From the NCBI GenBank assembly GCA_009377605.1, contig WHTT01000040.1:1-58511 (forward strand): a stretch of 58,511 bases of DNA. Reading direction: 5' to 3'. Position numbers and translations under genes: made by a program. This document shows, piece by piece, positions 3 to 51,704 of the stretch. How positions within the stretch are numbered: the stretch's first letter is position 1; each line of letters opens with the position of its first letter. This stretch comes from Luteitalea sp. GTDB lineage: Bacteria > Acidobacteriota > Vicinamibacteria > Vicinamibacterales > Vicinamibacteraceae. The notes beneath the pieces were generated by a model that worked only from the letters and a program-made list of their open reading frames with translations, ran no database searches and had not been told where the DNA came from.

Positions 3-2117
3 GGCCGCCGGCGCGTAGGCGCGCACTTCGGCCGTGGTCTCTGGCTCGACACCGCCGCTTGCCGGGAGTGGGTTGCGCACCAGCCGGGTCTCGGCGCGGA
101 GCGCCGCATCTTGGGTGAACAGATGCGCGATCGCTTCGGCGCCGATCCTGACATCATCGGGCGTGACATCCGCATGGATGGGACGCCGTACACGGTCATC
201 GGCGTGCTGCGGCCTGGCGTCAACGATCGTCTGCCGGCCGATGTGTGGATCCCGCTCTCGTTGACGCCGGACCAGATCGCGAACCGCCGGTTCCGCCCAT
301 TGCTGATGGTGGGGCGGCTCGCGCCAGGCGTGACCATCGCACAGGCGCAACAGGAGATGAACGCCATTGCGGAGGACGTGGCGCAACGGTTCCCAGACTC
401 CAACACGGGCCGGACGGTGAGCGTGGAGCCGCTCCAGAACAACTTCCTGAGCGCGGACGCCGTGACGAACTTGTGGCTGCTTTTGGCGGCGGTCAGCTTC
501 GTGGTGTTGATTGGGTGCGTCAACGTCGCGAACCTGCTCCTCTCACGCGGCGCGGCACGCGAGCGCGAGACCGCCATCCGCGCCGCGCTCGGGGCGACGC
601 GCGGACGTCTGGCCCGGCGCGTCTTGACCGAGAGCCTGGTGCTGGCCACGGCCGGCGGCACGTTGGGCGCGCTGTCGAGCATCTGGATTCTCCAGGGCAT
701 TCTCGCGATGCTGCCACCCGGCGCACTGCCCGCCGAAGCGGATCCTCGACTGAATCTGCCCGTGTTGCTGTTCACGCTCCTGGCAGCCATGCTGTGTGGC
801 CTGCTGTGTGGTGCGGCGCAGGCCTGGCAGGCAAGCCGCATGGACTTCAACGACACGCTGAAACAGGCGGGGCGCAGCGCGACCGGGAGCGGTCGCCGGC
901 GCCTGCGTCACACACTCGTCGTGGTCGAGTTCGCGCTGGCGGTCACCTTGCTCACGGGCGCGGGACTGACGATCCTGAGCTTCTGGCACCGCACGCAGGT
1001 CGACCTTGGCGTGCGCACCGATCACATCCTCACCTTTGGGTTGCCGGTGAACGAAGGGCGGCTTTCCTCGCCGGCTGAGATCGACGGCTTCTACCGGCAC
1101 CTGATCGAGCAGCTCCAGGCGCTTCCTGGCGTCGTCCACGCCAGCGTCAGCGCTCCCGGGCTTCCGCTGCTCGGTACCGGGTTTTCTACGGAGCTCAGCA
1201 TTGTCGGACGGCCCGATGACGTGCCGTCGTTACGGCCGAGCGCGGGCGTCCAGATGGTCACGCCAGAGTACTTCGAAACGTTTGGGATCGGTGTCGTGCG
1301 CGGGCGCGCGTTGACCGCGGGCGATGGTCCGAGCACGCAGCGCGTGGCCCTGGTCAACGAGCGCTTCGTCGAGCGCTTTCTGGAAGGCCGGGATCCCGTG
1401 GGCCAACGTGTGGCGATGGACGAGCTCGTCCCGGGAACCCCTGGATTCGTGCCTGGCGTCCCGGGTGCTCCCGTCGAGTGGCACATCGTGGGGGTGTTCC
1501 GGGATGTGAGCAATGTCGCGCGGTTCGGTGATCCCGAGGCGCCGCAGATCTACGTGCCGTTCGCGCAGAGCCCATGGCCGCAGGCGATGGCGGCGGTCCG
1601 TTCGGCGACCAACCCCGACGCGTTGCGCCAAAGCGTCGCGGCGGCGGTTGAGGCCGTCGACCCGGAGCTGCCGCTGACAGACGTCCCAACGATGGACGAG
1701 ATCGTGAGTGCGAGCTTCGCGTCCGATCGATTGAACATGGCACTCTACGGTGGACTGGCAGCGCTGGCGCTGGTGCTGGCGGCGCTCGGCATCTATGGGG
1801 TCATGGCCTACACGGTCACGCAGCGGACGTCGGAGATCGGGCTCCGCATGGCGCTCGGTGCCGGACAACTTCACGTGCGGCTCCAGATCCTCCGCGAAGG
1901 CCTGACGCTCGCCGCAGGCGGTTTGGTGTTGGGGCTTCTGGGTGCGTATGGTCTCGGTCGTGCCATGCAAAGCACGCTCTACGGTACGAGCGCGCTCAGT
2001 GTGCCCGTGCTGCTGGCTGTTGGGACCGTCTTGCTCGCCGCCGCGGTGGTCGCCTGCTACGTGCCAGCTCGCCGGGCCAGCGCGGTGGATCCGATGATTG
2101 CTCTGCGCCAGGAATAG
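3..2117 (+). CDS. ADOP-family (MacB/FtsX-like) permease, 5' end outside window
   Basis: This is an integral membrane permease of the acidobacterial duplicated orphan permease type: related to the MacB/FtsX subunits of ABC exporters but with no ATPase gene beside it. The frame stays open to the left edge, so the N-terminal prefix and first membrane segment are missing. What remains begins in the first periplasmic domain (ADPDIIGRDI, GTPYTVIGVL), then the first FtsX block with RERETAIRAALGATRGR, a second periplasmic domain, and a second FtsX block (SEIGLRMALGAG) ending in the usual PARRASAVDPMIALRQE tail. The methionine at 111 lies inside the periplasmic domain and is not the start. Substrate unknown. 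No PadR gene is visible here because its expected position is off the window. Confidence 0.9.
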   Translation, partial: GRRRVGAHFGRGLWLDTAACREWVAHQPGLGAERRILGEQMRDRFGADPDIIGRDIRMDGTPYTVIGVLRPGVNDRLPADVWIPLSLTPDQIANRRFRPLLMVGRLAPGVTIAQAQQEMNAIAEDVAQRFPDSNTGRTVSVEPLQNNFLSADAVTNLWLLLAAVSFVVLIGCVNVANLLLSRGAARERETAIRAALGATRGRLARRVLTESLVLATAGGTLGALSSIWILQGILAMLPPGALPAEADPRLNLPVLLFTLLAAMLCGLLCGAAQAWQASRMDFNDTLKQAGRSATGSGRRRLRHTLVVVEFALAVTLLTGAGLTILSFWHRTQVDLGVRTDHILTFGLPVNEGRLSSPAEIDGFYRHLIEQLQALPGVVHASVSAPGLPLLGTGFSTELSIVGRPDDVPSLRPSAGVQMVTPEYFETFGIGVVRGRALTAGDGPSTQRVALVNERFVERFLEGRDPVGQRVAMDELVPGTPGFVPGVPGAPVEWHIVGVFRDVSNVARFGDPEAPQIYVPFAQSPWPQAMAAVRSATNPDALRQSVAAAVEAVDPELPLTDVPTMDEIVSASFASDRLNMALYGGLAALALVLAALGIYGVMAYTVTQRTSEIGLRMALGAGQLHVRLQILREGLTLAAGGLVLGLLGAYGLGRAMQSTLYGTSALSVPVLLAVGTVLLAAAVVACYVPARRASAVDPMIALRQE

Positions 2118-18853: not shown

Positions 18854-21457
18854 CTATTCCGTACGCAGAGCCGCCATGGGCGAAACGCGCGAGGCGCGAA
18901 ACGCTGGGATGAAGCCGGCAGCCACGGCGACGAGCAGCAGGATCGCTGCCGTGCCCGCGTACGTCCATGGATCGCTCGGGGTAACCGCGAAGAGGATCGA
19001 GGAGAGGAGCGAAGACAGCGTGATGGCACCGACGAGCCCAATGGCGGCGCCGAGCAGCGTCAGCCGCAGGGTATCCGCGACAACGCTGGCGCGGATGTTT
19101 CGCCTCGACGCTCCCAATGCCATGCGGATGCCGATCTCGGGTGTGCGCCGCGCGACGGAATAGGAGATGACTCCGTAGATACCGATGGCGGCAAGCAGCA
19201 GCGCGGTTGCCGCAAAGGCGGTCAGCACGTTGACGAAGAAGCGTCGCGGAGAGAGCGCGCGGTCGACGATTCCCTCGAGGGACCGGAAGCCGGCAGTCGG
19301 AAGGTCTGGGCCAACCTGCGCGAGGGCGGCCCGCAAAGCCGGGACCACGTCGGCGAAGGAACGCCCCGTCCTCACGACGAGACTCGGTGACATCGTCCCG
19401 CGCTGAAGTATCGGAAGGTAGAATTCAGGTCCCGCTGATTCCTCGACGGTCAGGTGGCGCACATCGGCGACGACTCCTACAACCTGCCGCTCGTCGTTGC
19501 CGACCTGTAGGGCTTCCCGCAACGGATCCCCGTTGGGCCAGAGCTGCTTGGCGAGCGTCTCGTTGACGATTGCGACAGGTTGGTGACTCGTATCGTCACT
19601 GTCCCTGAACTCCCGCCCGGCAACGAGCGGGGTTTGCATCGTTTCGAACAGGCCGGGGCCGATGATCTTGACCAGCGCTCCCACGGTTTCCTCGGGCGGC
19701 TGGCCTTGTGCCCGAACACCCCAAGTCCGATTGCTATCGAGCGGAACGGCATCGGTGATCGATGCGGCCGCAATGCCGGGAACATCTCGGGCCGCCGAGA
19801 CAAGCCCTCTCATGTAGGCGAGAAACTTCTCTTCCGTGTCGATGTTCTCGCCGGCGTCGACGCGCAGCGCGTAGGTGCGTTCCGGTGCAAAGCCCAGGTC
19901 GACGTCGAGCACATGGAGGAAGCTGCGTAGGAACAGTCCGGCACCAACAAGCAGTACGCACGCAAGCGCAACCTCCGACACGACGAGCAGGGAACGTACG
20001 AACCGATGATCACGTCCTTCGCTCGAACCGCGGCCGCCCTCCTTGAGCGCTGCGCCGACATCGCCACGGGCAGCCGCAAGCGCGGGCACCAGGCCGAACA
20101 ACAATGCGGTGAGCACCGTGACGCCAACGGCGACGCCGAGCGCCACACCGTTGATCTCCACGCCCCGGAGCAGCGGGATACTCAGACCCTCGAGCTGGCG
20201 GACGTAGCCCACGGCAACGTAGGAAAAGACAACGCCGAGCCCACCTCCCAGGATCGACAAAACGACGCTTTCGGTGAGCAGTTGGCGCACCAGACGCCCG
20301 TGTCCCGCGCCAAGCGCGCCGCGCAAGGCCATTTCTTTGTGGCGGCTGGCGGCGCGCGCGAGCAGGAGGTTGGCGAGGTTGACGCACACGATCAACAGCA
20401 CGAGGCCAACGGCGGCCCACAGCGTTAACATCGGCTGGCGCATGCGCCCAGTGACCGACTCGCGGAGAGGCTCCAGAATCGCGTTCGCCTCACCGATCTC
20501 GGGGTGCTCACGCCTGTGACGCTCGATCACGGCGGCGGCCTCCGCCTGCGCGGCCGCGAGCGGGACGCCCGGCTCGAGTCGTCCCAGGATCGCCATGGTA
20601 TTGCCCCAGTCGCGGACGACATCGAAGACCACGGGCATGTAGATCTCGACCTGGATGCCGGGCGCGAACACCGCTCCAAAATCAAATGCTCGCGGCATGA
20701 CGCCGACGATCGTCGCGGCGCGATCGTTGACGACAACCGTCCGGCCGATGACCCGAGGATCGGACGAATAGCGCCGCTCCCACAGCGCATGGCTGAGGAT
20801 GACGGCGCCCGGACCATTCAATTGGGACTCTGCTTCGGTGAACGTCCGCCCGAGCATGGGCGCCACGCCGAGAAAGGGAAAGAAGTTCGCGGGAATCATC
20901 ACGCCGACAACGCGGTCGGGGTTCGCGTCGCCGGCGAGCTTGTAGCTCGAACGGGCGAAGAACGCCTCGTAGGTGGACATCTCCTCGAAGCTTCGCATCC
21001 CGGTTAGCGCTTCGTAGGTCGAGACGGTCGAGGTACGGCCCGAGAGGCCTGGCGTATCCTGATTGATGATCCAGACCAGCCGGTCCGGAGCACGGAACGG
21101 CAGCGGCTCGAACAGGAGCTTGTCGATGACACTGAAAACGGCGACATTTGCACCGATGCCGAGTCCGAGGATCAGGACGGCGACTAGGGTGAACGACGGC
21201 TGCCGGCGAAGCTGCCGCAGCGCATAACGGATGTCGAGCAGGATGCTTTCGAGCGTTGGCCATTGCCACACTTCGCGGCCGCGCTCTTCCAACGATGTGA
21301 TGTTTCCGAACTCCCGCCGCGCCATCATCGTGGCCTCTTCACGAGACATGCCCTGCTCAACGAGACCGTCGACCTTCTCCTCGAGGTGTTGTCGCATCTC
21401 TTCAGAGAGCTCGTTATAGAGCCGCCGGCGCCCGAGGATTCTCCTGATCCAGTTCAT
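18854..21457 (-). CDS. ADOP-family permease
   Basis: An 867-residue ADOP permease on the opposite strand from its neighbour. The start at 21457 (MNWIRRILGRRR) gives the standard prefix LSEEMRQHLEEKVDGL; upstream codons to 21508 lack family features. The first membrane segment is FTLVAVLILGLGIGANVAVF. The FtsX blocks carry KEMALRGALGAGHGR and TPEIGIRMALGASRR, and the end is FRASRVSPMAALRTE. No PadR gene is next to it; an HNH endonuclease fragment occupies the upstream side. It is intact by eye. Confidence 0.93.
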   Translation of the reverse strand: MNWIRRILGRRRLYNELSEEMRQHLEEKVDGLVEQGMSREEATMMARREFGNITSLEERGREVWQWPTLESILLDIRYALRQLRRQPSFTLVAVLILGLGIGANVAVFSVIDKLLFEPLPFRAPDRLVWIINQDTPGLSGRTSTVSTYEALTGMRSFEEMSTYEAFFARSSYKLAGDANPDRVVGVMIPANFFPFLGVAPMLGRTFTEAESQLNGPGAVILSHALWERRYSSDPRVIGRTVVVNDRAATIVGVMPRAFDFGAVFAPGIQVEIYMPVVFDVVRDWGNTMAILGRLEPGVPLAAAQAEAAAVIERHRREHPEIGEANAILEPLRESVTGRMRQPMLTLWAAVGLVLLIVCVNLANLLLARAASRHKEMALRGALGAGHGRLVRQLLTESVVLSILGGGLGVVFSYVAVGYVRQLEGLSIPLLRGVEINGVALGVAVGVTVLTALLFGLVPALAAARGDVGAALKEGGRGSSEGRDHRFVRSLLVVSEVALACVLLVGAGLFLRSFLHVLDVDLGFAPERTYALRVDAGENIDTEEKFLAYMRGLVSAARDVPGIAAASITDAVPLDSNRTWGVRAQGQPPEETVGALVKIIGPGLFETMQTPLVAGREFRDSDDTSHQPVAIVNETLAKQLWPNGDPLREALQVGNDERQVVGVVADVRHLTVEESAGPEFYLPILQRGTMSPSLVVRTGRSFADVVPALRAALAQVGPDLPTAGFRSLEGIVDRALSPRRFFVNVLTAFAATALLLAAIGIYGVISYSVARRTPEIGIRMALGASRRNIRASVVADTLRLTLLGAAIGLVGAITLSSLLSSILFAVTPSDPWTYAGTAAILLLVAVAAGFIPAFRASRVSPMAALRTE

Positions 21458-21557
21458 GGCCTCATCGTCCAGGGAAGGTCTCGATAATGTCGCTGCTTCA
21501 CTCAGCAACCTGACGCAAGTCCATACCTAGACTAAACAAGGTTAAGGGTTGTGTCAA

Positions 21558-21820
21558 CAACGTCCGCGTCTGTCGACCTGGTGGTCGGCCACTGCTCGCC
21601 GCACCACCGGCACCGCGTTGGGACACCGGCGGTGGCGACGTCTGGGACCCGCTCGCGCCCAGCACTACGCGGCTCGCGGCGGCCGGCATTCGCATCGGCC
21701 CAGACACGGCGACCCCTGATTGGTTCGGCGAACGACTCGACCCTGCGCTATGCCCTCGACGTGCTGCGAGATGGTCCAGCGACTGGAGCCATAGGCGGGA
21801 AGATTTCCGCGGGAATGTGA
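21558..21820 (+). pseudogene. C-terminal fragment of a DUF222/HNH endonuclease
   Basis: In one frame the DNA encodes VRVCRPGGRPLLAAPPAPRW, then WDPLAPSTTRLAAAG and TATPDWFGERLD. This is nearly the same as the C-terminal end of the HNH protein at 40712-41593 (CRPDGRPLPAAPPAPRW, DPLAPSTARLTAAG, TATPDWFGERLD). A frameshift near 21745 is needed to continue as ALDVLRDGP, and a TGA follows at 21818. The HNH catalytic part and the DUF222 domain are absent. The fragment starts about 100 bases upstream of the ADOP start, in the opposite direction. Confidence 0.75.
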
Positions 21821-21926
21821 GTGGAGACAAGGCAGAGCCGTGCACAGTCGACTGTCCATCCCGACAAACGTGAGACTCGTGGAGATGTGCAGGAATGAAC
21901 GGTCGCAGTCCGGGCCAAAGCCCTCG

Positions 21927-23126
21927 TCAAGCGCGGAGGTCGAACCGGATCTTTGCCTCTTCGGCGAACTTCTTCTCGTCGATGACCAGCCCCACGCCGG
22001 GTGCATCCGGAACATGTGCCAGTCCCTCTTTGATGGAGTACCCATCCGCAACGAGGATTTCACTGGACAACGGATCGTGCTCCGCCCGGTAGAAGTTGGG
22101 AATCGCACGTCCCACGTGGAGCTGCATGTAGTACCCGACCAGCGAGCCCCAGTTGTGCGGTGCGACACGCAGTCCCTTGGGCTCGCACCATGATGCCTCA
22201 AGCAGGATCCCCTCGTAGCCGAAGCGATTCATGTCAGCTTGGTAGATATCGACGGCGATGGCTTCGATGAGCGGTTTGAAGACGTCGAGAGTGTCCTGCG
22301 TCTCGCCGTCAGCAACGAGTGTCTTGAGGCCCTGGCTGCGGAGGAATTCCTTGAATTCGAGACACTCCTCGGTTTGCTCCTCGAACATCTCTTCGGCGAA
22401 CTCGACGTTCAGCTCGCCGATCCTCTCGAAGAGGCGCTTCGCTCCCGCCAGGTCGTAGCCGTTGTTGGCATCGACGCCAATCAGGACGTCGGGGCCGGCG
22501 TGGTCGCGAATGACGTCGAGCACAGCGACATCGCGGGCGTCCCCTTCTTCGCGCGGCATCCACTTCGCGCCGCGACCGATCTTTACCTTGAACGCGCGAT
22601 GGCCGAGTGTTAGGCCCATGTCGATCTCTTCGCGGAACCGGTCCTCCCAGCGATTGGCGTACTGCGGCAGCAGGTCCGCAAAATAGATCGACCCGTCGTA
22701 ACAGGGGACGCGCTCCGAGCCGCGCGTGCCTAGCAACTCATGCACCGGCTTGTTTCGCACCTTCCCGAGCAGGTCCCACAGGGGCATCGTGCCCGCTCCG
22801 AGCGGACTCTCCATGCGGGTCTCCGCCTCACGATAGAAATCGAACGGGTTTCGCCCGAGAAGCTGCGCGGCCTCCTGTTTATTCGCGCGGCAGTTGCCGA
22901 CGCCGACCAACTTCATGTTCGTCTCGATGCGCAACATGCGGTCGGTCGCCGTGTCGCCATGAACGTCGAGCCGAGAGTTCTTGCCCGCAATCTTGGATCG
23001 GCGGGTGGGGAGATCGAACCCGGTGAGACGCGTGACCTTGAGGTCGGAGGGAAGCTCATCGGTACGGACCGCACGCGAGAGCAGCGTGCCGGCAACGAGA
23101 GAGACCATGAAATCTCGGCGCCGCAT
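21927..23126 (-). CDS. Tat-exported enolase-superfamily protein (mandelate-racemase-like)
   Basis: A 399-residue protein with a twin-arginine signal (MRRRDFMVSLVAGT). The enolase-superfamily barrel carries the KxK base pair in AFKVKIGRG (Lys180, Lys182), metal ligands around Asp219 (VDANNGYD), Glu245/246 (FAEEMFEE) and Glu275 (VADGE), and a late His324 (APHNWGS). This arrangement suits sugar-acid dehydration or racemisation. Family members are usually cytoplasmic, so a Tat signal is notable but not unique. It is divergent from the LRR gene with about 185 bases between. Substrate not predictable. Confidence 0.85.
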   Translation of the reverse strand: MRRRDFMVSLVAGTLLSRAVRTDELPSDLKVTRLTGFDLPTRRSKIAGKNSRLDVHGDTATDRMLRIETNMKLVGVGNCRANKQEAAQLLGRNPFDFYREAETRMESPLGAGTMPLWDLLGKVRNKPVHELLGTRGSERVPCYDGSIYFADLLPQYANRWEDRFREEIDMGLTLGHRAFKVKIGRGAKWMPREEGDARDVAVLDVIRDHAGPDVLIGVDANNGYDLAGAKRLFERIGELNVEFAEEMFEEQTEECLEFKEFLRSQGLKTLVADGETQDTLDVFKPLIEAIAVDIYQADMNRFGYEGILLEASWCEPKGLRVAPHNWGSLVGYYMQLHVGRAIPNFYRAEHDPLSSEILVADGYSIKEGLAHVPDAPGVGLVIDEKKFAEEAKIRFDLRA

Positions 23127-40669: not shown

Positions 40670-40717
40670 TCATTCATATCTCAAGGCGGCCATTGGCTCG
40701 AGACGAGATGACCGCGC
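40670..40717 (-). pseudogene. C-terminal tail of an ADOP permease
   Basis: On the minus strand the DNA encodes SSRLEPMAALRYE then TGA at 40670-40672. This is the standard end of ADOP proteins (compare VSPMAALRTE at 18854 in this window). Upstream the homology ends within about 15 codons, where the HNH endonuclease fragment on the other strand begins. About 98 percent of the permease is missing. Confidence 0.6.
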
Positions 40718-41593
40718 GACGATGGCACGGCGGAGGTCAGCCCGGCCCAACGCCGCGCGGACGCGCTTGGCCTGCTGGCCGAGAGTGCGCTCGCGAGCGA
40801 TCTGGATCGCGGGACGGCGGGCGATCGGTACCAGGTGGTGCTCCACGTCGACGAGGTCACGCTGAAAGCGGCCGACGGGGAGGCGGTTGCGTCCGACGCG
40901 GGCCAGGCAGTGCTGGAGGATGTGGACGGGGCGCACGTTTCAGCGGAAACGTCGCGACGGATTGCCTGCGATGCGGCGACGGTGGTGATGCGGCATACGC
41001 CAGACGGCACCGTGCTCGATGTCGGACGGAAGCAGCGGACGATCCCGCCAGCGATTCGCCGGGCGCTCGCGGCTCGGCATCGTCACTGCCAGTTTCCCGG
41101 CTGCACGGCGCGGCACTGTGACGCACACCATGTGCAGCACTGGGCTGACGGAGGGGCTACGCGGCTGACCAATCTCTGCTTGCTCTGCAAACGACATCAT
41201 CGAGCGGTGCACGAGGAAGGCTTCACGCTCACGCGGGCTCCGGATGGGACGGTCGCCGTGTGCAGACCCGATGGCCGGCCGCTGCCGGCCGCACCGCCCG
41301 CACCCAGATGGAACACCCAGGGCGGCGAGGTTGAAGACCCACTCGCGCCCAGCACCGCGCGGTTAACGGCCGCGGGCATCGGCATTGGCGCCCACACGGC
41401 CACCCCCGACTGGTTCGGCGAACGGCTCGACTTGGACTACGCGCTCGACGTGCTCCGAGATCGCCCCGTGGCCGTCCCACGGGCCGTTTCCGCGAAGGGG
41501 CGGTCGCGATGTCGCTCGCGGAAGACGACGTCCACACGGAGACCGGCAACAGTGGGATTTCTTGGTGTGTCCGGAATGAATTATCGGATCTGA
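40712..41593 (+). pseudogene. DUF222/HNH endonuclease, 5'-truncated
   Basis: The open frame begins directly after a TGA at 40709-40711. It reads AQRRADALGLLAESALA, GDRYQVVLHVDEV, the end of a DUF222 domain, then the complete HNH module: HCQFPGCTARHCDAHHVQHW and LCLLCKRHHRAVHEEGF. A family tail (PAPRW, DPLAPSTARLTAAG, TPDWFGERLD) and an odd 35-residue end follow. Intact members are about 400-500 residues, so half the DUF222 domain is missing. An ATG at 40835 could still start a 252-residue protein with the catalytic site. Members of this family are often multi-copy in actinobacterial and acidobacterial genomes. Confidence 0.8.
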
Positions 41594-41600
41594 CAAAGCA

Positions 41601-41951
41601 GTGCTAACGCGCAACGCTCACGAACCCAGACGTCTCGCAGAGCGGATTCTTGGCCTCGGACGACCTGACCTGCTACAACGACACCTGATGCGGAGCTCCA
41701 GGTCGGGAGCTATGACAATGCTTGGAACCGTAACACGTTGGGAGAACGGCGATGTCGAGCCAGGTGCCGGTCTCAGCGCGGTGGTCCGCGCGGTGGAGCG
41801 CGTGCGCGATCCGGAGGACATTGTGGGATGGCTCGAAACGCCGGACGCTCGATTCCACAACGAGCCACCTGTGGATCTTCTTGGCTCGGCGCACGTAACA
41901 GCGGAACTGCTCGAGTCGATTGAGCATTGGGGAAAGGGCGACCTCTCCTAG
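41601..41951 (+). CDS. Xre/MbcA-like antitoxin homologue, possibly degraded
   Basis: A 116-residue frame. TVTRWENGDVEPGAGLSA resembles the end of an Xre helix-turn-helix. The C-terminal part VGWLETPDARFHNEPPVDLL with LLESIEHWGKG resembles the toxin-binding domain of the MbcA/ParS/Xre antitoxins of RES-type toxin pairs. The expected first half of the HTH (a Q-x-x-L-A pattern) is not clear upstream (RPDLLQRHLMRSS), so the gene may be frameshifted or shortened. No RES-domain toxin gene follows. The assignment is tentative. Confidence 0.4.
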   Translation: MLTRNAHEPRRLAERILGLGRPDLLQRHLMRSSRSGAMTMLGTVTRWENGDVEPGAGLSAVVRAVERVRDPEDIVGWLETPDARFHNEPPVDLLGSAHVTAELLESIEHWGKGDLS

Positions 41952-42132: not shown

Positions 42133-42420
42133 ATGGTCGAACGCCTATGGCAGGACGTCCGGTATGCTGCGCGGTCGCTGCGCCGTGCGCCGGCGTTCAC
42201 AGCAGCCGCCGTCGTGACTGAGATCGCCCTTCGCGCGGCCATCGGAGCATCGCGGGCGCAACTCGTGCGTCACACCATGGTCGAAGAGGTATCCGGCACC
42301 GATACCGCGACGCTCACGCTCGTGCCAGGTCTGCTAGTTGGCGTGGCGTTCCTCGCCTGTTACGTACCCGCGCGACGAGCCGCGCGCACAGATCCCATGC
42401 TCTCTCTCCGCGCGCAGTGA
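42133..42420 (+). pseudogene. Internally deleted ADOP permease (95 codons)
   Basis: The frame joins three separate ADOP pieces without a stop: the start of the first membrane segment (WQDVRYAARSLRRAPAFTAA), the conserved motif of an FtsX block (EIALRAAIGASRAQLVRHTM), and the last membrane segment and tail (LVGVAFLACYVPARRAARTD then PMLSLRAQ). About 90 percent of the usual 800 or more residues are missing, at two joins near codons 29-30 and 52-53. The product could at best be one membrane segment. GGAG lies about 9 bases before the ATG. Confidence 0.8.
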
Positions 42421-42521: not shown

Positions 42522-45254
42522 ATGCCGTACCCGCTCACGAGGCTAGGTCTTCGCCTGCGCTCGTTGTTCCTCAAGGCGCGCGTCGAGCAGGAGCTCGATG
42601 AGGAGCTGCGATACCACCTGGAGCGCGAGGTCGAGGAGCGCCTTGCCGCGGGGCTGACGCCGGAAAAGGCACGTCTCTCCGCCCGGCGCAGCCTGGGTCC
42701 GATCGCGAAGAGCATGGAGGAGTGTCGCGACATGCGTCGGGTGAGCTTCATCGAGCATCGGGTTCACGACCTCCGATTCGCCGTTCGTCAGCTCTCGAAG
42801 CATCGCGGGTTCGCATATACGGCCATCCTCGTACTGGCGCTCGGCATTGCGGCAAACGTGGCCATTTTTGGCTTCGTCGATGCTGCCCTGATCAAGCCGC
42901 TGCCGTATCAGGAACCGTCCCGACTGGTCACCGCCTTCAGCACGCGCCCGGAAACCGCGCAAGGCCAGGCTCGAGGCTCTGTCTCCTACCTGAACTTCCT
43001 CGATTGGCGAGAACGCAACCACGCGTTCAGCGCGATTGCTGCCTACGACGTCCGTGCGGGCTTTACCTTGGCCACGCCCGCCGGACCCCAGCGCGTGCCC
43101 GGCCTCAGAGTAACCGCCGGATTCTTTCGCACGCTGGGCGTGACGCCTGTCCTCGGACGCGAATTCCACCGAGACGAGGAGGGGCCCGCCGCGCCCGCGA
43201 CGGTGGTGCTCTCCTACAGCACGTGGCAGACGCGTTTCGGCGGGAGGCGGGACGTGCTTGGGCAGACCGTGACGCTGCAGTCGGACTGGCTCTCTGACGG
43301 CGAGCAGCACGTCGTGATCGGCGTGCTGCCGCGAGACTTTCATTTCCCGATGGCCTCGCATGCGGACTTCTGGGCGACGATCCGAGGGCGCCAAGCGTGC
43401 TGGGACGTGCCGAGCTGCCAAAGCTTGGAGACCGTTGCGCGGCTAGCCGATGGCGTCTCGCCGCAAACGGCGTCAGCAAGCCTCACGGCCATCGTCGAGC
43501 AGCTACGACGTCAGTATCCCGACCAGCATGCGGATCCTGAGATTGCAAAGCTCGTGCCTCTACGCGAGGTGATGATTGGCGACGTTCGACCCATCCTGCT
43601 GACGTTCCTGGCCGGCGCAGGGTTGGTGCTCCTAATCTCTTGTATCAACATCGTGAGCTTGCTGCTGGTCCGCTCCGATAGCCGCACGCGCGAGATCGCA
43701 GTCCGCAACGCGCTTGGTGCCTCGTCTGCGCGGTTGGTTCTGCAATTCGCGGCGGAAGCGCTGGTACTCGTCGTTGCTGGTAGCGCGTGCGGGCTGCTCC
43801 TGGCTGCGTGGGGTATGCGATTCTTGAGAAGCCTCCTCAGCACCGACATGATCAGCAACATGCCGTACCTCCAGGAGGTCGGCTTGAACCTTCGTGTAGT
43901 CGCGTTTGCCTGCGCGGTCTCCCTAGTCGCCGCTGTCGTGTTCGCCGTCACGCCCGTCGTGCGCATCTCGATGTCCGAGAGACTCGTGGGACTGAAGGAA
44001 GGCGGTCGTGGCGCTGCAGGGACGACGTGGCGGCGCCTGGGATCGCATCTTGTCGTCGCCGAGCTCGCGGTCGCCCTGATCTTGCTCGTGACTGCTGGAC
44101 TCCTAGGCAAGAGCCTCGATCGGCTGCTTCACGTCGATACGGGGTTCAATACACGGCACCTCGCCTCGCTTGGGGTCAGTGTCGCGTCCGTCCGCTCTGG
44201 GTCAAGTACGGCGAAGTCAACGAGCGCAAAGGCGGAGCAGCCCGGCCTGCTAGCGCGACAGGTTGCGGATCGCGTGTCGGCCCTGCCGGGCGTCGCGGCG
44301 GTCGGCTACGCCGATATGTTGCCGCTGAGTGTTCTGGCACCATCGTCCACCTTCTGGATCCCAGGTCGCCCCGAGCAGGATCAGCTCAAGGAGTCCTGGC
44401 CAGTGCGGCGTGTCAGCGCGGGCTATTTCACGGCGCTGCAGGCCAGACTACTGCGGGGCCGCCACTTCACCTACGCGGAAGTCGCCGACGCCCCAACAGA
44501 CAACGATGCTGGCTCGACGCGTCTTCCAATCATCATCAACGAGACCGCGGTGCGACGGTATTTTCGAGGCGAGGATCCCATCGGAAGGTCGATTGCCATT
44601 GGCGGTCGTACGTCGGCGCCAAGAGAGATTATCGGAATCGTGGCGGACATCAAGGAGGGGCCGCCGCAGACGCCAGCGCACCCAGCCGGGTACGTTCCGT
44701 TCAACTACGTGGATTTTGGCCTCGTCGTTCGCACGTCACAGACCGGGCGGAGCGTATTCCCGTCGCTTCTTGCCGCGATACACGAGGTGCGGCCCGATCT
44801 TCTCGTGGGCAGACCAACGACGATGGTGGAAGGAATAAGGACGTCGCCGGCGGCATCCCTGCACCGCTCTTCGGCGTGGCTGATTGGCGGCTTTGCGGGA
44901 GTAGCGTTTCTGCTGAGCGTCGTCGGGCTCTACGGCGTCGTGGCGTACTCGGTTGGCCTGAGAACCCGCGAGATCGGTGTCCGCATGGCGCTCGGTGCGC
45001 AGCGTCGGTCAGTGTATCAGCTCGTGTTAGGAGACGCTGCTAGGCTGGTGGCCGTCGGGACTGGCGTGGGACTGATCTGTGCAGTGGGCACGGCCACGCT
45101 GATGCGTAACCTGTTCTTTGGCGTTCAGTCCTGGGACCTGCCGACGTTGACCACCGCCGCCGCAGTGCTGATCCTCTCGGCCCTGCTCGCCAGTTACATC
45201 CCTGCTCGCCGCGCTGCGTCAGTGAGCCCAGTCGAAGTCCTGCGCGCCGAGTAG
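42522..45254 (+). CDS. ADOP-family permease
   Basis: A 910-residue ADOP permease. Prefix: VEQELDEELRYHLEREVEER. First membrane segment: FAYTAILVLALGIAANVAIF. FtsX blocks carry TREIAVRNALGASSAR and TREIGVRMALGAQRRS; end PARRAASVSPVEVLRAE. AGGAG lies about 8 bases before the ATG. There is no PadR gene next to it; upstream is the deleted ADOP (42133-42420). It is full length by eye. The GNAT gene converges on it with 15 bases between stops. Confidence 0.93.
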   Translation: MPYPLTRLGLRLRSLFLKARVEQELDEELRYHLEREVEERLAAGLTPEKARLSARRSLGPIAKSMEECRDMRRVSFIEHRVHDLRFAVRQLSKHRGFAYTAILVLALGIAANVAIFGFVDAALIKPLPYQEPSRLVTAFSTRPETAQGQARGSVSYLNFLDWRERNHAFSAIAAYDVRAGFTLATPAGPQRVPGLRVTAGFFRTLGVTPVLGREFHRDEEGPAAPATVVLSYSTWQTRFGGRRDVLGQTVTLQSDWLSDGEQHVVIGVLPRDFHFPMASHADFWATIRGRQACWDVPSCQSLETVARLADGVSPQTASASLTAIVEQLRRQYPDQHADPEIAKLVPLREVMIGDVRPILLTFLAGAGLVLLISCINIVSLLLVRSDSRTREIAVRNALGASSARLVLQFAAEALVLVVAGSACGLLLAAWGMRFLRSLLSTDMISNMPYLQEVGLNLRVVAFACAVSLVAAVVFAVTPVVRISMSERLVGLKEGGRGAAGTTWRRLGSHLVVAELAVALILLVTAGLLGKSLDRLLHVDTGFNTRHLASLGVSVASVRSGSSTAKSTSAKAEQPGLLARQVADRVSALPGVAAVGYADMLPLSVLAPSSTFWIPGRPEQDQLKESWPVRRVSAGYFTALQARLLRGRHFTYAEVADAPTDNDAGSTRLPIIINETAVRRYFRGEDPIGRSIAIGGRTSAPREIIGIVADIKEGPPQTPAHPAGYVPFNYVDFGLVVRTSQTGRSVFPSLLAAIHEVRPDLLVGRPTTMVEGIRTSPAASLHRSSAWLIGGFAGVAFLLSVVGLYGVVAYSVGLRTREIGVRMALGAQRRSVYQLVLGDAARLVAVGTGVGLICAVGTATLMRNLFFGVQSWDLPTLTTAAAVLILSALLASYIPARRAASVSPVEVLRAE

Positions 45255-50162: not shown

Positions 50163-50226
50163 GGCTATGTAACGGGGGGCGATGTAACGATCCCGTGACG
50201 GCGGCTGAAGACGAAACATCTATCGT

Positions 50227-50260
50227 AACCGGAAAAAGGGACAGGCCCCTTTTTCCGGTT
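50227..50260. repeat. GGGACAG-type palindrome variant
   Basis: Inverted repeat of 14-base arms (50227-50240 and 50247-50260) around ACAGGC: AACCGGAAAAAGGG then the reverse. It contains GGGACAG at 50238-50244 and is followed by a partial extra copy of CCTTTTTCCG. It lies between the divergent starts of the membrane protein and the LigD-type polymerase gene. Confidence 0.8.
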
Positions 50261-50294
50261 CCTTTTTCCGATATCCTCAGAGGCGATCGATCCC

Positions 50295-51704
50295 ATGCCG
50301 AGCAGCACCGAACGGGAGCTTCTGGTCGTCGCCGGCCGCGAGGTGACTATCTCCAACCCGCGTAAGGTGCTGTTCCCCGAAGCGGGCTATACGAAGCTGG
50401 ACCTCGTCCACTACTACCTCGCCGTCGCCGACGGCGCGCTGAGAGCCGTGGGCGGCCGGCCCAACGTGCTCGTCCGCTATCCGAACGGTATCGATGGAGA
50501 GTTCTTCTATCAGAAGCGAGCGCCGCCGTCGCGGCCTGATTGGGTCGACGTCGTCGCGCTGAAGTTTCCCTCTGGGCGCGACGCCGAAGAGGTCGTGCCG
50601 CACGACGCCGCCTCGCTCGTCTGGATGGCGAACCTCGCCTGCCTCGAGCTGCACCCGCATCCCGTCCGCGCGGACGATCTGGATCATCCAGACGAGCTGC
50701 GCGTCGATCTCGATCCCGTGCCCGGCGTCCCGTGGACGCAGATCCGCGAGGTTGCGCGGATCGTCCAGGCCACGCTGGAGGACTTCGACCTCACCGGCTG
50801 GCCCAAGACATCCGGCTCGCGCGGAATGCACGTTTATGTACGTATCGAGCGGCAGTGGAGGTTCGACGAGGTACGCCGCGCCGCGCTCGCGCTGGCGCGC
50901 GAGGTCGAGCGCCGCGCACCGAGCCTCGCAACCAGCAAGTGGTGGAAAGAAGAGCGGCACGGCGTCTTCATCGACTACAACCAGAACGCGAAGGACCGCA
51001 CCATCGCCGGCGCGTACTCCGTGCGGCCGACCGCTGACGCGCGCGCCTCCGCGCCGCTCGTCTGGGACGAGGTCGACGCCTGCGAGCCGCAGGACTTCAC
51101 GCTTCGTACGATGCCCGCGCGCTTCGCCGAGCTGGGCGATCGCCACAGAGAGATGGAACGCCGCCCGTGCTCGCTGCTGCGCCTGCTGGATCTCGCCGCG
51201 CGTCACGAGAAGGAGGGGCTCGGCGACGCGCCCTGGCCGCCGCACTATCGCAAGCAGCGCGGCGAGCCGCCGCGCGTGCAGCCATCCCGGCGACGCCGCA
51301 CCGAGGCGCATCCGTTGATTGAGATCGGCCGCGCACAGCGCAAGGAGGAGGCGCTTGCCGGCCTCGATCGCTGGCGCGCCCGGCATCCCGAGGCAGCCGC
51401 CCACCTCGCGCCTGCGGACGTGCTCGTCGACGCCATGCGGGGCCGCTATCGCACGTGGACACGGATCCGCGTGAACCTGCAGCACGTCCCGGTGGAGCTG
51501 CGCCCGCCACAGGAAGCGCTCGATCCAGACTCCGGCGAGACCGGCTGGCCCGAGTGGACCGACGAACAACGCGCCGAGTGGAAGAAGTGGCGGCAAGCGC
51601 GCAAGCAGACGGCGCCTGCCGGCGCGGACACCGCCGGTACCGATCCGATCACGACGAAGGGCGCGCCGCGCCGAAGACCTTCTCGAGCTCGTAAGGAGTC
51701 GTGA
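50295..51704 (+). CDS. ligD: LigD-type polymerase/primase for non-homologous end joining
   Basis: A 469-residue stand-alone polymerase domain of the archaeo-eukaryotic primase superfamily, as found in LigD. The catalytic carboxylates are in VDLDP (Asp138, Asp140), with KTSGSRGMHVYV and the late DYNQNAKDRTIAGAYSVRP typical of the family. Residues 1-300 form the polymerase; the last 150 are basic and low-complexity (RRRRTEAHPLIEIGRAQRK), possibly for DNA or Ku contact. There is no fused ligase or nuclease. The ligase gene runs toward it and overlaps its 3' end by 56 bases. It fills gaps at double-strand breaks. A Ku gene is not in the window. Confidence 0.92.
   Translation: MPSSTERELLVVAGREVTISNPRKVLFPEAGYTKLDLVHYYLAVADGALRAVGGRPNVLVRYPNGIDGEFFYQKRAPPSRPDWVDVVALKFPSGRDAEEVVPHDAASLVWMANLACLELHPHPVRADDLDHPDELRVDLDPVPGVPWTQIREVARIVQATLEDFDLTGWPKTSGSRGMHVYVRIERQWRFDEVRRAALALAREVERRAPSLATSKWWKEERHGVFIDYNQNAKDRTIAGAYSVRPTADARASAPLVWDEVDACEPQDFTLRTMPARFAELGDRHREMERRPCSLLRLLDLAARHEKEGLGDAPWPPHYRKQRGEPPRVQPSRRRRTEAHPLIEIGRAQRKEEALAGLDRWRARHPEAAAHLAPADVLVDAMRGRYRTWTRIRVNLQHVPVELRPPQEALDPDSGETGWPEWTDEQRAEWKKWRQARKQTAPAGADTAGTDPITTKGAPRRRPSRARKES

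Follow-up and report, generated by a model that had tools for sequence, protein, structure and literature searches.

IscB and TnpB elements carry a nuclease gene inside IS-type ends. The repeated unit described here shares this arrangement, but its nuclease gene contains DUF222 instead, and its HNH domain matched the IscB model only weakly (E 1e-4, below the cut-off). To our knowledge, DUF222-HNH genes, which are found in several phyla and are often multicopy, have no established function or mode of moving, and we know of no inverted-repeat ends for the REP13E12 (or 13E12) repeats of mycobacteria. By annotation (DUF222 plus HNH), REP13E12 belongs to the same family as the present unit, and it occurs in many copies (available sections of PMC10589994). 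It differs from this unit in being described with a putative prophage attachment site, located inside the repeat, and as lacking a defined function (available sections of PMC13061034).

Mobile insertion cassettes (MICs), such as MIC231 of Bacillus cereus and mic-qnrD of Proteeae, are described in the available sections of PMC3913671 as a single cargo gene flanked by inverted repeats of IS type; they lack an internal transposase gene and have a short target duplication and a matching IS elsewhere. The HNH unit shares the flanked cargo gene, the lack of an internal transposase gene and the matching IS, which lies in a related genome; at its one resolved site, 4-bp repeats may represent a target duplication. 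It differs from MICs in its IS701-family ends, its DUF222-HNH nuclease cargo and a movement in trans that is putative. IS701-family elements, for which the available part of PMC2266710 gives a norm of 1400-1550 bp, 4-bp direct repeats and ends of the form ---YACT-Y--YR, share with the HNH unit their ends, the 4-bp direct repeats and the insertion point of a real IS701 copy; unlike these elements, the unit contains no transposase gene and measures 1.78 kb (versus about 1.4-1.55 kb). In the literature covered, which excluded most subscription papers, no DUF222-HNH gene flanked by IS701 ends was described; this is weak evidence of absence.

The sequence analysed here, referred to as the window, is a stretch of 58,511 nucleotides from Luteitalea sp. 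An HNH remnant at 21.5 kb and its surroundings comprise the following features:

18854-21457, minus strand: stop-free ADOP permease gene (TIGR03434, 847.5 bits, cut-off 622.3); called start at 21457, longest frame starting at 21508
21544-21787, plus strand: decayed 3' end of a DUF222-HNH gene (tblastn, blastn), covering residues 395-474 of 480 with a frameshift near 21742
21788-21890, plus strand: perhaps the degenerate non-coding 3' portion of the HNH unit, aligning weakly and with gaps to four copies; right end not recognisable
21927-23126, minus strand: conserved gene on the other side of the remnant, with a relative in a second genome (stretch L175)

The remnant (window 21567-21772) was shown to align with a second copy at 41257-41461 with 76% identity over 206 bp (E 2e-39; best score among 100 mononucleotide shuffles, 27 bits), and with an intact copy of 480 residues on contig C113 with 79% identity over ~210 bp (blastn, E 4e-40). 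Protein matches were split over two frames (tblastn; residues 395-459 at 21544-21741 and residues 460-474 at 21743-21787), indicative of a frameshift near 21742. The open frame at 21551-21820 gave no Pfam match at E 0.01; the fragment alone matches no family, and its membership of the DUF222-HNH family is based on DNA and protein homology. The distance from the called ADOP start to the remnant is 87 bp according to the gene caller. To the right, homology to the second genome restarts at 21907, perhaps from about 21890, and no HNH copy was observed within the 20-kb stretch holding the relative of gene 21927-23126. The original prediction had placed an HNH tail at 21558-21820, close in sequence to 41264-41470 and ~100 bases from the start of an ADOP, with the other copy abutting an ADOP end; this observation was confirmed. 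The 21.5-kb fragment is dead DNA, left over from the 3' end of a copy of the dispersed DUF222-HNH unit, with no indication of expression or function.

The second copy and the other relevant sites of the window are:

40670-40699, minus strand: solo C-terminal ADOP tail adjoining the second HNH copy (motif scan)
40715-41479, plus strand: second HNH copy, 5' part missing, residues 218-475 (tblastn); PF02720 and PF01844 above cut-off
41584-41603, minus strand: right terminal inverted repeat of this copy's unit, matching the ends of an IS701 element
42289-42420, plus strand: C-terminal ADOP remnant (tblastn, 42289-42417; motif scan), preceding the ADOP at 42522-45254
42522-45254, plus strand: stop-free ADOP gene (TIGR03434, 782.2 bits)
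50163-50295, no strand: HNH-free site; its counterpart in the second genome (L076, 9630-10671) contains a 222-bp HNH fragment

Five of the eight window proteins scanned exceeded the TIGR03434 cut-off of 622.3 (646.7 to 967.8 bits). At the counterpart sites examined, HNH was lacking in three out of three. Long DNA matches between the window and stretches L175 and L176 of the second genome dwindle to single genes around both HNH sites of the window, so that these regions seem to rearrange fast. ADOP genes were furthermore observed as tandem, closely similar copies (window 3-2117; L073 46-7827), the window ADOP at 3-2117 being 83-90% identical at the DNA level to three tandem ADOPs of the second genome.

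In total, 27 HNH loci were identified, 12 in the window's genome (G000) and 15 in the second genome, which is placed in the window's genus (G006); the DUF222 profile was present in two of the seven genomes of the family. The former count represents 11 loci found by this profile (12 matches, two of which fall within one locus) plus the tail-only fragment, and the latter 12 loci found by the profile (14 matches) plus C29, C84 and C88. Both PF02720 and PF01844 were above the curated cut-off in the C113 copy and in the copy at 40.7 kb. Eight near-full-length copies without an internal stop (three in G000, five in G006) were compared, yielding dN/dS values of 0.17-0.33 over 28 pairs; these stop-free copies are thus under purifying selection. 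C111b and C9 are near-full-length and interrupted, and the gene is incomplete at the other loci, some of which run into a contig end. In a tree built from the 20 copies that reach 600 bp, copies tended to group by genome (4 label changes versus 6.9 expected; 12 of 500 shuffles as low), and this moderate grouping suggests amplification or conversion within each lineage.

DNA homology between copies was found to cover the gene together with about 240 bp upstream and 120 bp downstream, and the complete unit (~1.78 kb) consists of one HNH gene, a conserved leader and a tail. In the best-kept copies, the unit is bounded by inverted repeats of 20 bp beginning CACTACTTTGTCAGATCCGA. Among 1.557 Mb examined, eight end matches of at least 16/20 were observed, all located at HNH-unit ends and all pointing inward. 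A scan of both genomes with up to three mismatches gave 12 matches (0 for the reversed pattern), of which nine lie at seven HNH loci, two bound an IS701 element and one is located inside an ADOP on C159. IS701-type ends are thereby kept at 7/27 HNH loci (up to three mismatches) and both ends at 2/27: the C74 and C11 units, from different genomes, measure 1781 and 1782 bp and contain their cargo between inverted repeats with no transposase gene inside, as in MICs, the five further loci having one end only.

The IS701 element with matching ends, located on C48 of G006, is 1398 bp long and encodes a transposase (NF033540, E 3.8e-80, 269.9 bits, cut-off 150; DDE_5, E 1.5e-46); its frame appears shifted near the C-terminus, and this copy may therefore be inactive. 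Such a copy was seen in G006 only, the end-motif scan revealing none in G000. Inspected by eye, CACTACTTTGTCA fits every fixed position of ---YACT-Y--YR, with some HNH ends deviating at one or two, and the size, ends and 4-bp TCGA repeats of the C48 element agree with the IS701 description in the available part of PMC2266710. The HNH units lack the IS701 transposase and are therefore not filed as IS701 elements. The C74 unit and the C48 element lie at an identical point within homologous flanking DNA (115 bp at 94% and 337 bp at 93%), and TCGA repeats bracket both at this shared target. The target DNA corresponds to the 3' portion of a gene from a second, distantly related HNH family. A diverged homologue without insert is present on C6 of G000 (73% identity over 104 bp and 82% over 39 bp). 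No matching repeats flank the C11 unit. IS701-type insertions also appeared to be central in palindromes with arms around ACTCG/CGAGT (L066 9325-9340 and 11122-11139; L065 9255-9270 and 13022), perhaps a sign that such targets are preferred.

The fragment at 21.5 kb is, in our judgement, probably a remnant of a dispersed DUF222-HNH unit that travelled as a transposase-less, IS701-ended cassette, was moved in trans and then decayed. According to this proposal, the HNH unit would be a cassette in which the HNH gene replaces the transposase gene, and an IS701 transposase acting in trans would move it, as in mobile insertion cassettes; copies would insert, subsequently amplify within each lineage, and decay by truncation and recombination. 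As both ends of the 21.5-kb fragment have been lost, we infer its arrival by an IS701-type route from its relatives. The evidence against an IS701 cassette includes the 20/27 loci without an IS701-type end, the absence of either end from the 21.5-kb fragment, the different end type at three other loci, the occurrence of the matching IS701 copy in G006 only and with an apparently shifted frame, the derivation of the 4-bp repeat from one target with two elements, the lack of such repeats at C11, and the only moderate grouping of copies by genome. IS-type ends around intact, selected DUF222-HNH copies would represent a concrete vehicle and yield a testable prediction, i.e. mobilisation by an IS701 transposase.

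Other end types were also observed. The C29 copy has ends of a second type (33 bp, one mismatch), single relatives of which lie beside C33:148525 and C18:58779, so that one vehicle is insufficient for all copies. This end type, which begins TAAGTACTCTG, was seen around or near HNH copies and also alone (L178 8425-9374, L067 17005, L072 11182, L181 9494, L052 888 and L074 20). When 90 flank pairs, among them those of Luteitalea, were searched for inverted repeats, three rows stood far above most of the mismatched-pair null, namely C29 and, in two records, the C74 copy. The highest of the remaining rows (33) were barely above the 99% point of this null (31; maximum 57). IS481-type end remnants are located just upstream of the HNH leader at 9/27 loci, and genome-wide this motif had 12 matches, nine at HNH loci, two as the ends of one IS481-type copy and one elsewhere. 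That element (L082 523-2030, on C18 of G006) has both ends and a transposase that is probably frameshifted, lies directly upstream of a second-family HNH gene, and represents the sole rve match above cut-off in the two genomes; elsewhere, its end motif is nearly confined to positions upstream of DUF222-HNH genes, where a conserved TTGACA directly follows it. The unit-end motifs (at 16/20, 19/23 and 16/19) were absent from 986 kb surrounding 72 HNH loci in records without a Luteitalea label, indicating that HNH spread there has another cause.

Alternatively, the copies may have spread by segmental duplication, gene conversion and decay, with the IS701 and IS481 pieces as later hitch-hikers, which we consider possible, if on balance unlikely. 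The loci lacking an IS701-type end (20/27) are in line with such a history, as are the flanks shared by C74 and C48, which extend beyond the element, and the DUF222 REP13E12 repeats of M. tuberculosis, described as gene-conversion hotspots in the available sections of PMC13061034. However, apart from ADOP to ADOP, no match of 150 bp or more was shared by flanks up to 4 kb from units of the same genome, and one pair of copies from different genomes agrees in length and keeps both ends. Between the genomes, one flank position is common (C111a with C33:148525), and matching copies of a repeated gene occur near C113 and C10:11818, where the HNH copies are oppositely oriented. The original prediction that the HNH genes move is supported by the unshared flanks, the tendency of copies to cluster by genome and the IS701-type ends.

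Its other component, that ADOP loci are common insertion or recombination sites, was assessed through the distances between HNH loci and ADOP genes. Of the 27 loci, 14 have an ADOP within 1.5 kb, versus 6.4 expected under random placement in their own 10-kb flanks (P 2e-4), and an ADOP is the immediate neighbour at 11/27 (4.55 expected, P about 2e-4). The predicted enrichment among other copies was retained when the window's two copies were left out (12/25 within 1.5 kb, P 6e-4; immediate neighbour, P 0.003). For G006 alone, 7/15 loci were within 1.5 kb (P 0.016; immediate neighbour, P 0.02), and P values of 0.03 and 0.07, respectively, were obtained after removal of the locus that it shares with G000. 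When the full set of loci was reduced to one per stretch, the P values were 0.002 and 0.013. Before C88 was added, the counts were 14/26 within 1.5 kb (6.1 expected, P 5.5e-5) and 11/26 as immediate neighbour (3.4-3.6 expected from nearby gaps, P about 2e-5); in the immediate-neighbour test with 27 loci, C88 has a null probability of 1, as only two features were entered for its stretch, which biases the result against the claim. An ADOP or ADOP remnant was present within 1.5 kb at 7/12 loci of G000 and 7/14 of G006, compared with 2.2% and 6.2%, respectively, of non-ADOP positions in control stretches, and even if 20% of the genome is assumed to lie near ADOPs, the within-1.5-kb counts correspond to P 0.004 (G000) and 0.012 (G006).

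For this comparison, ADOPs were detected with our own profile on sampled stretches. The controls (31 stretches of G000 and 25 of G006) were picked by contig number and coordinate, not at random; 1/31 and 11/25, respectively, are on HNH-bearing contigs, and two of the 25 (L175 and L176) are counterparts of window sites. Genome maps based on TIGR03434 (67 of 241 candidates scored, with two above-cut-off window ADOPs absent) and on an ADOP C-terminal profile (150 of 395 and 150 of 575 scored) were set aside, and rve-type transposases were too few (4 and 3 matches) to represent a control family. Gaps beside ADOPs and other gaps had median lengths of 105 and 124 bp and mean lengths of 269 and 224 bp, respectively.

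The excess of HNH loci beside ADOPs in these two related genomes is real but moderate. Its most likely, though putative, cause is that HNH loci and ADOPs build up in shared gaps that are dispensable and rearrange rapidly. Should the excess recur in further genomes of the genus, it would mark permease clusters as hotspots of genome rearrangement. That ADOP genes or their flanks are instead preferred landing or recombination sites of HNH units is, in our assessment, unlikely. The excess survives the local control, and at three loci (C40b, C111b and C18:58779) the ADOP is, as read from coordinates, shortened on the side facing the HNH copy, which fits recombination there; conversely, two ADOP remnants at C9 have lost their far side instead. 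HNH and ADOP orientations are mixed, with every arrangement occurring, no common motif was noticed when ADOP junctions were inspected by eye, and no ADOP-specific target for HNH units was found. The only site resolved on both sides lies inside a second-family HNH gene, and the excess in G006 alone reaches a P value of only about 0.02. Among the 72 HNH loci from records without a Luteitalea label, an ADOP piece was present within 1.5 kb at one, leaving 71/72 without in the DNA examined, and three such pieces were found anywhere in the flanks, some of which are short. The original prediction therefore stands in part: mobility of the HNH genes is supported, and a role of ADOP loci as insertion sites is not shown.

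A homing-type nuclease that itself mobilises and spreads its own gene would be consistent with the purifying selection on the eight tested copies, with the HNH residues conserved in alignments of the copies and with the relatives in several phyla (by record title), but is very unlikely, since the unit ends belong to a DDE-transposase element and no site-specific target was seen.

Within the preferred reading of an IS701-ended cassette, the HNH protein might help retention by cleaving related sites, or donor sites left empty, the repair of which would bring the cassette back, as TnpB and IscB do for their elements; we consider this very unlikely. If it were true, repair of HNH cuts would leave broken ADOP pieces around the unit, and DUF222-HNH genes, the relatives of REP13E12, would function as retention nucleases of DDE-type cassettes. 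Solved structures gave no match to the HNH profile (E up to 1), and libraries of defence and phage protein profiles returned nothing, or the HNH domain only. The predicted HNH structure was poor (mean pLDDT 57), being confident only in a helical N-terminal part, roughly residues 29-160.

The second dispersed HNH family, which has no Pfam match at E 0.01, was observed at L082 2222-3751, L080 7032-8177, L196 3819-4979, L227 7603-8685 and L181 1416-1727. Its L227 member is interrupted near the 3' end by the IS701 element, and the C74 HNH unit is flanked by the remains of another gene of this family.
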